IMG/VR virus record: IMGVR_UViG_3300007539_000218
Span: 1 to 24,220 of that record
DNA: 24,220 nt
Source: a virus
Direction: 5' to 3' (one strand)
Position numbers and translations under genes: made by a program. The notes below the pieces were generated by a model. That model did not search any database, was not told where the DNA came from, and saw only the letters and a list, made by a program, of their open reading frames with translations. Numbering within the stretch: the first letter of the stretch is position 1; each line of letters opens with the position of its first letter. Positions 23,023-24,182 of this stretch are shown here, one piece after another.

Positions 23023-23055
23023 ATTATATAGTAGCAAAAAAGGAGAGGTGTTCAA
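23023..23055 (-). promoter_or_regulatory. Likely talC promoter
   Basis: Minus-strand TATAAT (23028-23023) lies just before talC. A TTGAAC (23055-23050) sits in the loop of the terminator immediately upstream, but the spacer is 21 bases, too long for ordinary sigma70 use. Either the -35 is weak or unused, or another factor helps. Confidence 0.45.
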
Positions 23056-23063
23056 CCTCTCCT
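23036..23063 (-). terminator. Terminator upstream of talC
   Basis: A 9-bp stem (23041-23049 with 23055-23063, AGGAGAGGT arm) has a 5-base loop, then six T residues on the minus strand. It overlaps the last codons of the 55-residue gene. Confidence 0.9.
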
Positions 23064-23219
23064 GTTTAAAATTGGTTCTACTGTGAGCAATTGCTCAAAA
23101 TAGTCCTTCAAGTGAATACGATAACAAGACCAGTACCTGCACCCTCTATAAGTTAGAAGGTAGCAGGCAGGTGGTCTGTTATCTTTATCCATGTCATCAT
23201 TATGATAGACATAGTTCAT
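23052..23219 (-). CDS. Small protein with one YRG motif
   Basis: 55 residues from ATG 23219, four bases after the DUF4278 gene stop; the frame is open further upstream but that part lies inside the neighbour. It contains LLTYRGCRYWSCYRI (21-35), a single YRG-x-x-Y copy like the repeats of DUF4278, then a helical end. Its last codons lie inside the terminator. Possibly a degenerate DUF4278 paralogue. Confidence 0.5.
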   Translation of the reverse strand: MNYVYHNDDMDKDNRPPACYLLTYRGCRYWSCYRIHLKDYFEQLLTVEPILNRRG

Positions 23220-23223
23220 GATA

Positions 23224-23388
23224 TCACTTGTTATAAGTGTGACCTCTATAGCAGAATGTTCCATGAGTTTCGTCAACACCTTGCTTGCACTCATACTGGA
23301 CACCACGATAAGCGGTGTGGGAGATTTGTGCGTCGTGCAGTGCTGCTTGCTTCTGGATCTGCTTCTTGATTAGAGTAAGTGTGTTCAT
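23224..23388 (-). CDS. DUF4278-family small protein
   Basis: 54 residues, ATG 23388 with AGGAG well spaced before it. The helical start (MNTLTLIKKQIQKQAALHDA) is followed by two copies of the DUF4278 motif: YRGVQY (27-32) and CYRGHTY (46-52). DUF4278 proteins are common in cyanobacteria and their phages and have no known function. It precedes the 55-residue relative. Confidence 0.8.
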   Translation of the reverse strand: MNTLTLIKKQIQKQAALHDAQISHTAYRGVQYECKQGVDETHGTFCYRGHTYNK

Positions 23389-23420
23389 CAGTTTGCTCCT
23401 GAATTTGGGGTTATTAGACC

Positions 23421-23446
23421 CGTTCCTTCAGTCGGCTTTTGCGTCC
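23421..23446 (-). repeat. Imperfect direct repeat, copy 1
   Basis: This 26-bp element spans the last codons and stop of the 65-residue gene. It matches the element at 23639-23664 except for a two-base deletion and a two-base insertion. Confidence 0.7.
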
Positions 23447-23625
23447 TTGTTATCAAAGCAATGAGGATCTGTATGATTCATCCAGTGTACGAGAATATCA
23501 AACTTCTCTGCTGGTGTGAATAATTTAGTTTCCTCAAGACCCTGCTTCAACCAGTGATAGTCTTCACACCTAAGGAGATCCTCAGGAGGAACATGACTAA
23601 AGAAAATCAAAGCTAATGATAACAT
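23428..23625 (-). CDS. Small conserved protein of unknown function
   Basis: 65 residues: a hydrophobic start (MLSLALIFFSHVPPEDLLRC) followed by a helical WLKQGLEETKLFTPAEKFDILVHWMNHTDP segment. The start ATG 23625 has a GGAG 15 bases upstream, a poor spacing. It is flanked by imperfect 26-bp direct repeats, and follows a consensus promoter and a structured leader. I recall similar small proteins in cyanophages, but no function. Confidence 0.6.
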   Translation of the reverse strand: MLSLALIFFSHVPPEDLLRCEDYHWLKQGLEETKLFTPAEKFDILVHWMNHTDPHCFDNKDAKAD

Positions 23626-23638
23626 AGGATGAACGCTC

Positions 23639-23664
23639 CGTTCCGAGTCGGCTTACTTGCGTCC
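23639..23664 (-). repeat. Imperfect direct repeat, copy 2
   Basis: Second copy of the 26-bp element in the leader upstream of the 65-residue gene. In one frame it reads TQVSRLGTERSS, a peptide string I recall from other cyanophage sequences, but the frame has no ATG. Confidence 0.65.
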
Positions 23665-23692
23665 CATTCGTTATTCGCAAATAGCAAATGGG
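23663..23692 (-). promoter_or_regulatory. Leader RNA hairpin
   Basis: The arms CCCATTCG and CAAATGGG (23663-23670 with 23685-23692, one G-T or wobble pair) lead to a mismatch, then TATT/AATA and a 4-base loop (23676-23679). It lies about 10 bases after the predicted transcription start. No T-run follows, so it is unlikely to be a terminator. Confidence 0.6.
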
Positions 23693-23707
23693 ATGAACGT
23701 AATGGTA

Positions 23708-23737
23708 ATTATACCATGATTATTTATGATTTGTCAA
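23708..23737 (-). promoter_or_regulatory. Perfect-hexamer sigma70-type promoter
   Basis: Minus strand TTGACA (23737-23732), 18-base spacer, TATAAT (23713-23708). The spacer itself contains CATAAATA (23728-23721), a near-late motif. It drives the leader and the small genes down to the terminator at 23036-23063. Confidence 0.82.
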
Positions 23738-23746
23738 CTGTATAAA

Positions 23747-24034
23747 TCAATACCGTTCAGGAATATTTTTCAAATCTTCAAGTTCAAAAGCACGATGACC
23801 CATCATAAGAGATTTGAGTCCGACTGCTTTATCCATTTCTTTTTTGTGGTAATTGATTACATCATCGACGCAAGATAGCATCTCTTCGTATGCTTGACGT
23901 GCATCAACTTTATCATCTTGAAGGTATTCATCGATGGAATCTTGAAGACGATTCCTACGTTGGATTTGATATTGGTTTTCCCAATCAACATTAAGTTCGG
24001 GTCGTCCTTCAATTACGTGTTCATGTCCTGTCAT
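23747..24034 (-). CDS. Helical protein of unknown function
   Basis: 95 residues from ATG 24034 (MTGHEHVIEGRPELNVDWE); an upstream ATG at 24067 would extend further into the previous gene. It is mostly charged helix (QYQIQRRNRLQDSIDEYLQ, then VDDVINYHKKEMDKA) and ends in NIPERY. It overlaps the AbrB-like gene by 14 bases. Seen in cyanophages to my memory; function unknown. Confidence 0.65.
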   Translation of the reverse strand: MTGHEHVIEGRPELNVDWENQYQIQRRNRLQDSIDEYLQDDKVDARQAYEEMLSCVDDVINYHKKEMDKAVGLKSLMMGHRAFELEDLKNIPERY

Positions 24035-24182
24035 GAGTCTTCTTAAGAATAAGGTGGTCTGAGGCATAGGTCCATTCTAACACATCTCCTTCGTGCCAGC
24101 CTAGACATTCCATAACATCGTCAGGGAATTCTAAAAACAATTCACCGTCATCACTCTCTTGAACTTGTAGTGTGTATTTCAT
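24021..24182 (-). CDS. AbrB/MazE-like small protein
   Basis: 53 residues, ATG 24182: MKYTLQVQESDDGELFLEFP, then DDVMECLGWHEGDVLEW and a LILKK strand. The F-x-FP-x-x-V-x-x-x-LGW-x-x-GD-x-L-x-W pattern is that of the swapped-hairpin AbrB/MazE DNA-binding fold, although only one copy is present and the usual basic N-terminal strand is weak. A transcriptional regulator is possible; it may act alone as a dimer. It follows the terminator at 24188-24211. Confidence 0.7.
   Translation of the reverse strand: MKYTLQVQESDDGELFLEFPDDVMECLGWHEGDVLEWTYASDHLILKKTHDRT

Follow-up and report, generated by a model that had tools for sequence, protein, structure and literature searches.

Two classes of glutamine riboswitch are known: glutamine-I (glnA, type 1; RF01739) and glutamine-II (downstream-peptide, type 2; RF01704). 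For the glutamine-II crystal, the available text of PMC6698751 places the ligand pocket at C1, G2, U3, G18, C19, C39, G40, G41 and their neighbours, and records that an aptamer made in vitro from two strands still binds glutamine; that two-piece aptamer was artificial and was cut in the linker between A20 and U21, not in P1. Picocyanobacterial type 2 riboswitches precede DUF4278 genes and activate them on glutamine binding; DUF4278 in turn is similar to the N-terminal part of IF17, a factor that inactivates glutamine synthetase in cyanobacteria (both from the available part of PMC6316151). Tandem glnA RNAs have been published (available part of PMC2864571), and glutamine riboswitches of the same Rfam families have already been reported in cyanophages and in pelagiphages or marine phages (PMC9964418, PMC9602691, PMC9004378), the available text of these three papers making no mention of a gene inside an aptamer or of DUF4278.

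Here we describe a locus on the minus strand of a 24,220-nucleotide stretch of viral DNA (IMG/VR record IMGVR_UViG_3300007539_000218, positions 1 to 24,220; hereafter the window). We judge, at a probability of roughly three in four, that it carries a host-related tandem glutamine riboswitch – aptamer A followed by aptamer B – with a complete protein gene filling the P1 loop of aptamer B. On this explanation the promoter, the two aptamers and a DUF4278-like gene would form one unit (Table 1).

With glutamine-II the element shares the motifs CGUUCA..CGCA..GGAACGG, the order P1-PK-P2, a start near the promoter, a ribosome-binding site beside P2, a DUF4278/YRG gene downstream and an arrangement in tandem or multiple copies, which is known from marine picocyanobacteria and is found here in their phages. 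It differs in that the P1 loop can be gene-sized, in the head-to-tail placement of aptamers with 2–5 nt between them, in Rfam scores below the gathering threshold, and in that A has no P2. With glutamine-I it shares the CGUUCA..GGAACG helix and the AAGUA of the glnA loop-E strand, and RF01739 is the model to which the short elements in these phages give their highest scores; however, the GAA strand opposite AAGUA and the third glnA helix are not intact in A, and B has instead a P2 by the ribosome-binding site. In the PeSL cassettes of T4-type phages an early promoter and a stem-loop are repeated between small genes, whereas the stem-loop here appears to belong to a metabolite aptamer and has a gene inside it. 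Our literature searches, which covered mostly papers available without subscription, found no description of a gene within a riboswitch aptamer and no paper linking DUF4278 with phage; as far as these searches reached, an aptamer with a protein gene as its hairpin loop is undescribed.

Table 1. Features of the locus, in window coordinates
Feature	Position	Strand	Basis or remark
Promoter TTGACA-18-TATAAT	23708..23737	(-)	12/12 consensus match
Aptamer A (putative)	23636..23699	(-)	Rfam RF01739/RF01704, both below gathering; compared with glutamine-II crystal RNA (PMC6698751, available part)
Aptamer A, 5' pseudoknot strand CGTTCA	23699-23694	(-)	
Aptamer A, P1 hairpin	23693-23662	(-)	
Aptamer A, linking strand	23661-23645	(-)	
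Aptamer A, 3' pseudoknot strand GGAACGG	23644-23638	(-)	
Aptamer B, 5' half (CGTTCATCC), directly before inner gene ATG	23626..23635	(-)	
Aptamer B, pseudoknot strand CGTTCA	23635-23630	(-)	
Aptamer B, P1 5' strand TCCT	23629-23626	(-)	
Inner gene, 65 aa, in aptamer B P1 loop	23428..23625	(-)	phrog_13397, E 1.2e-42
Aptamer B, 3' half	23420..23447	(-)	
Aptamer B, P1 3' strand AGGA	23447-23444	(-)	4 contiguous pairs with 23629-23626
Aptamer B, CGCA, then linking strand, then GGAACGG	23443-23440 (CGCA); 23426-23420 (GGAACGG)	(-)	
Aptamer B, P2: CTGAA 23431-23427 with TTCAG 23403-23399	23396..23431	(-)	sequence
Outer gene ribosome-binding site AGGAG, overlapped by P2	23400-23396	(-)	
Outer gene, 54 aa, DUF4278-like (YRG)	23224..23388	(-)	phrog_545, E 3.3e-33
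Terminator-like hairpin with T run, possible transcription unit end	23041..23063	(-)	weak alone

The leader and its likeness to glutamine riboswitches

The first-pass annotation had described a near-perfect promoter, a leader of about 75 bases without an ATG-started gene, an interrupted hairpin with a 4-nt loop at 23663-23692, and a partial repeat where the next gene ends. All four are present, with the correction that they lie on the minus strand: the promoter (23737-23708) matches the consensus at 12 of 12 positions, the leader runs for about 80 nt to the ATG at 23625 and holds no such gene, the pairing is slightly wider (23693-23662), and the repeat (GGACGCAAAAGCCGACTGAAGGAACGG, 23446-23420) is the 3' half of aptamer B. 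The transcript would be expected to start within a few nucleotides of the first base of aptamer A (23699); our literature search for work on start sites in cyanophages found none. Taken as a single sequence, the leader has an ordinary folding energy (z -0.84, matched by 40 of 200 shuffles), so hairpin energy alone would not have revealed a function and the case rests on comparison.

At the gathering score, Rfam models matched only a tRNA in the window. A permissive search of 23350-23760 returned just two families, both on the same stretch (23635-23702, minus): RF01739 at 27.6 bits (E 5.6e-4; gathering 35 bits) and RF01704 at 21.1 bits (E 0.0046; gathering 33 bits). For the window's aptamer B, raising the limit to E 10 still gave no Rfam hit. 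In a set of 18 related loci, four short elements – the B elements of L003, L004, L008 and L020 – reached the RF01739 gathering score (35.0–38.8 bits) and seven more scored 32–34.2 bits, while the best score to RF01704 was 28.5 bits, under gathering. The pseudoknot letters of glutamine-II (C1 G2 U3 U4 C5 A6; C17 G18 C19 A20; G35 G36 A37 A38 C39 G40 G41) are kept in both window aptamers. Judged by its letters, aptamer A appears to depart from known aptamers where the A33-G42 pair would form: the stretch reads AAGGAACGGG or GGA in B and CGGAACGGA in A, which would replace the pair. The three-way junction with loop E of RF01739 is not present in A, which has AAGUA; the alignment deletes four loop-E hairpin columns.

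These data point to the window leader as an aptamer of glutamine-riboswitch type, with ligand binding putative. The first-pass annotation had recognized an RNA element and the repeats flanking the 65-residue gene; it had missed the glutamine-riboswitch type, the tandem pair and the enclosure of the gene by aptamer B. A reading of one leader frame as a conserved peptide (TQVSRLGTERSS) did not survive: the frame is not kept in isolates, where the core reads GACGCAAGTAAGTCGCGGAACGG. A small RNA or a protein-binding leader became unnecessary once Rfam and covariation indicated an aptamer.

The freshwater isolate phage DSL-LC03 (locus L227) departs from the pseudoknot letters, with CGGA in A and GAACGC at the end of B; its A core, CGGAAGUAAG, is closer to glnA, and this phage may bridge the glutamine-I and glutamine-II classes.

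Two probable aptamers in tandem

For comparison we assembled 347 copies from 199 viral loci together with the window. Exact searches in viral contigs separated two core types, A (GACGCAAGTAAGCCGACTCGGAACGG) and B (GACGCAAAAGCCGACTGAAGGAACGG), represented by 152 and 195 copies; 146 B copies come after an A, and in 175 adjacent pairs the 5' strand of B starts 2–5 nt past the A core. When these 199 loci were searched with their sequences reversed, the 3'-half pattern matched nowhere. Its fixed letters were GACGCA and GGAACGG; CGTTCA was not part of the search patterns and is thus independent, and it occurs within 400 nt upstream of the 3' half in 336 of the 347 copies.

The distance to the nearest CGTTCA shows that P1 loops are either short (up to 30 nt) or gene-sized (135–223 nt), with nothing between across all 347 copies. 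Among A copies, 94 have a distance of up to 30 nt and 56 one of 187–223 nt, and two have no CGTTCA. Among B copies, 50 have a distance of up to 18 nt, 136 one of 135–206 nt and four one of more than 400 nt, and five have no CGTTCA; these counts include five chance contigs (L128, L129, L132, L133 and L134), which are part of the nine B copies without CGTTCA within 400 nt. Among the 175 adjacent pairs, 88 combine a short A with a gene-holding B, 48 hold genes in both loops, 23 are short in both, and 16 have a gene in A and a short B. On the evidence of sequence, occupied and empty P1 loops exist at the same place.

The gene in the P1 loop

In the window, the loop of the P1 hairpin in aptamer B is taken up by a gene of 65 codons: CGUUCAUCC stands just before the inner AUG, GGACGCA..GGAACGG comes just after or overlaps the inner stop, and the UGA itself (23430-23428) lies inside the aptamer core. 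The same holds widely. In each of the 192 long inserts an open reading frame begins 3–14 nt past CGTTCA and ends within -15 to +28 of GACGCA; after shuffling, a given frame stays open in 2% of cases. The loop genes have about 49–69 codons. At 125 of 136 B inserts the stop is the UGA of GACTGA within the aptamer core (123 of 147 when distinct B genes are counted). Families differ in where and in which frame the gene stops, so that what is conserved is the RNA.

Substitutions in the inner genes look as expected of translated genes, codon position 2 varying least and position 3 most in all five clusters tested. At 50% identity the inner proteins form 17 clusters. Each of the 200 distinct sequences has at least two cysteines, and hydrophobic amino acids are abundant among the first 15 residues (median 0.60); the window protein likewise has a hydrophobic N-terminus and two conserved cysteines. 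AlphaFold predicts for it a two-helix hairpin flanked by these cysteines (mean pLDDT 81.4, residues 20-50 well above 90 on average, the N-terminus poor). The predicted fold has no significant match in the PDB (best E 3.6), and Pfam gave nothing for the inner proteins tried. The protein may be secreted, with one disulphide.

Pairing across the gene

The P1 stem is laid out as TCxxx before and into the AUG, with xxxGA before CGCA, and occurs as TCCTTAT/TAAGGA, TCTAT/ATAGA, TCTTAT/ATAAGA, TCATCA/TGATGA and TCACTAT/ATAGTGA. That the leader holds a conserved RNA control element, for which the first-pass annotation had proposed a check of compensatory changes, is borne out by comparison across phages: the P1 hairpin varies by substitutions that keep pairing.

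In distinct B ends, 250 of 292 cells are paired, against a mean of 172.8 and a maximum of 199 in 2000 random re-pairings; in distinct A ends the figures are 112 of 140, with a re-paired mean of 97.7 and a maximum of 107. The excess is thus clear for B and smaller for A. The influence of relatedness was limited by drawing one member from each of 18 inner-protein clusters. At positions 9-12 the paired fraction is then 0.881 against 0.586 after re-pairing (largest of 200 draws 0.778), and sliding one strand by +1, +2 or -1 lowers it to 0.36, 0.36 and 0.52. Two-sided changes that keep pairing were seen at 21 cluster-positions, several of which also include unpaired members. A P1 stem with covariation appears in the short and the gene-holding forms alike.

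At least one AUG letter lies in the contiguous P1 helix in 127 of 147 distinct B genes, and all three do in 49; for A genes the corresponding figures are 23 and 11 of 58, the AUG lying outside the helix in the remaining 35. Gene-holding A loops pair less well (only 3 pairs in 15 of 56), and in the window's own aptamer B the contiguous P1 helix is only 4 pairs long.

The outer gene and host counterparts

Most B copies are followed by a P2 strand complementary to CTRAAG, next to an AGGAG-type site. Of 181 distinct B copies, 151 have a downstream P2 match at 6 of 6 positions, compared with 180 of 3620 trials with shuffled downstream sequence. No P2 was found for A in the window or in the A variants inspected.

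The outer protein of the window matches PF14105 at 21.2 bits (E 3.7e-4), below the Pfam cut-off of 25.3; that of a relative reaches 25.0 bits (E 2.5e-5), also just under, and YRG repeats are visible. An open reading frame after the outer gene (23052-23306, minus) contains a further YRG-like stretch (LLTYRGCRYWSCYR), so that another DUF4278-like gene may lie ahead of the terminator-like hairpin (23063-23041). Four such hairpins were found, compared with a shuffle mean of 2.8.

In the host family a glutamine-II match exceeds the cut-off in 77 of 121 genomes. We viewed 46 loci from the host search (three had no central match). P1 is short in 40 of 41 host rows (one, L297, has CGTTCG for CGTTCA); the model behind this search requires a short P1, so absence of the nested form from hosts does not follow. 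Another four rows belong to a phage contig in a single-cell assembly. Downstream of the 41 host loci lies a YRG gene in 32 and a small gene, MNNL..IREKI, in nine, the latter resembling the start of the window's outer protein. Phage and host thus share both the sensor and the gene family that it serves. The two switches in the window appear to be host-derived.

Distribution among phages and other replicons

The nucleotide search suggested by the first-pass annotation showed the element to be widespread. BLAST of 23600-23750 found relatives in 428 of 50,697 phage records, nearly all of them cyanophages (by name, 309 Synechococcus phages, 66 cyanophages and 24 Prochlorococcus phages), and the exact 26-mer occurs in at least 120 viral stretches. 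There was no match among 72,556 plasmid records.

An isolate set of 17 phage records comprised 13 BLAST hits, chosen by similarity, and four taken by accession (P-SSM2, P-SSM4, S-PM2 and Syn9). The 3'-half pattern is present in 16 of the 17, in two copies in 14, with none in the reversed control. Loop B is filled by a gene in 16 (DSL-LC03, whose core differs, was read by eye) and is short in S-PM2, likewise read by eye; in P-SSM4, Syn9 and Sf-CH1b loop A holds a gene as well. Nearly all cyanomyovirus isolates examined thus have the element, and none of the 11 regions viewed around it carries a riboswitch annotation, the genes there being labelled 'hypothetical': annotation pipelines miss the element because a gene splits the motif.

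A search for a host origin by DNA pattern was set aside. Among 14 genome contigs, those labelled cyanobacterial proved to be phage contigs within assemblies of single cells or metagenomes, and several of the rest were chance matches. Three contigs labelled Dehalococcoidia, Acidimicrobiia and Euryarchaeota (L204, L210 and L212) show the phage arrangement and are probably binned cyanophage DNA.

Alternative explanations and proposed working

Could the conserved flanks act as DNA? One account holds that CGTTCATCC and GGACGCAAG..GGAACGG are homology blocks for the swapping of small genes, the aptamer halves being relics of a host-derived tandem riboswitch with no present RNA function across the gene. 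Many different families do lie between the same flanks, occupied and empty forms coexist, and two of the 17 inner-gene clusters occur in both loops (2 A and 2 B in one, 3 A and 1 B in the other), which gives modest support to the first-pass idea of a recombination unit. Recombination joints, however, would keep sequence and not complementarity, whereas the P1 ends change on both sides and yet pair, and P2 is kept beside the ribosome-binding site; the flanks are explained by RNA structure rather than by recombination alone. We consider this account unlikely, and, cassette swapping being compatible with RNA function, more a complement than a rival. That the short complementary ends bounding the gene (4–9 pairs) are terminal inverted repeats of a small mobile element, acting as DNA, is highly improbable: the ends differ between copies and offer no fixed recognition sequence, empty sites have the same stem with a short loop instead of a target duplication, and the strictly kept letters are those of the riboswitch pseudoknot.

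A further possibility concerns aptamer A, which may have changed function, having lost glutamine binding or taken up another ligand, and may serve as a leader that positions B; its GAACG might, for example, pair with the next CGUUC and so hide or show the region before the inner AUG. Such a hairpin can form at every one of the 175 A–B junctions of 2–5 nt (-3.9 to -5.2 kcal/mol), A has no P2, and its core departs from that of B and of host aptamers (GCAAGUAAGCCGACUC; A, not G, after GGAACGG). Yet the pseudoknot letters are kept, P1 covaries when the A loop is short, and the A element of DSL-LC03 scores 34.2 bits to RF01739. We give this change of function a real but clearly minor chance.

We return to the tandem glutamine riboswitch with a nested gene. 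The two halves, the pairing across the gene, the occupied and empty forms, the P2 by the ribosome-binding site and the association with DUF4278-like genes all come from sequence comparison; the following working is proposed. Glutamine is predicted to bind aptamer B. The folded aptamer would raise translation of the outer gene, as reported for host type 2 switches, while holding the inner start region in P1 and so lowering inner translation. A ribosome on the inner gene, stopping at the UGA within the core, would open the aptamer. With such opposite effects of the fold, the two genes would be read in opposite glutamine states. In addition, the GAACG of A may pair with its own CGUUC or with that of B, 2–5 nt on, which could couple both aptamers.

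More tentatively, and at somewhat less than even odds, the locus may be a reciprocal two-gene switch whose P1 loop is a docking place for exchanged small genes. Glutamine would close the aptamer, taking the inner start codon into the P1 helix and freeing the outer ribosome-binding site; inner translation, ending inside the aptamer, would keep it open. A point against the nested riboswitch as such is that a translated loop of 150–220 nt could stop the aptamer from forming at all in the cell. If the reciprocal reading is true, the gene in the P1 loop is part of its neighbour's sensor. The enclosed gene would tie inner and outer expression together, and the arrangement would offer a natural test of the distance tolerated between aptamer halves and of translation against ligand sensing on one RNA. 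Through the outer gene the arrangement is linked with nitrogen metabolism: the likeness of DUF4278 to the N-terminus of IF17 suggests that phages may tune host glutamine synthetase via a host-derived sensor.

Other features of the window

The -10 box lies inside a palindrome, ATGGTATAATTACCAT in the window (23702-23717) and TGTGTTAGTATTAACACA or GGTATGCTAACATACC upstream of A elsewhere. Palindrome arms of at least 5 occur in 128 of 153 distinct upstream sequences, against 42 of 153 in one shuffle of each, and the palindrome is possibly an operator. An open reading frame at 24021-24182 (minus) has a weak MazE antitoxin-like match (PF04014, E 0.0092, under the cut-off). A second promoter with a 12/12 match lies at 21858-21830 (minus), just before the tRNA at 21819-21735.
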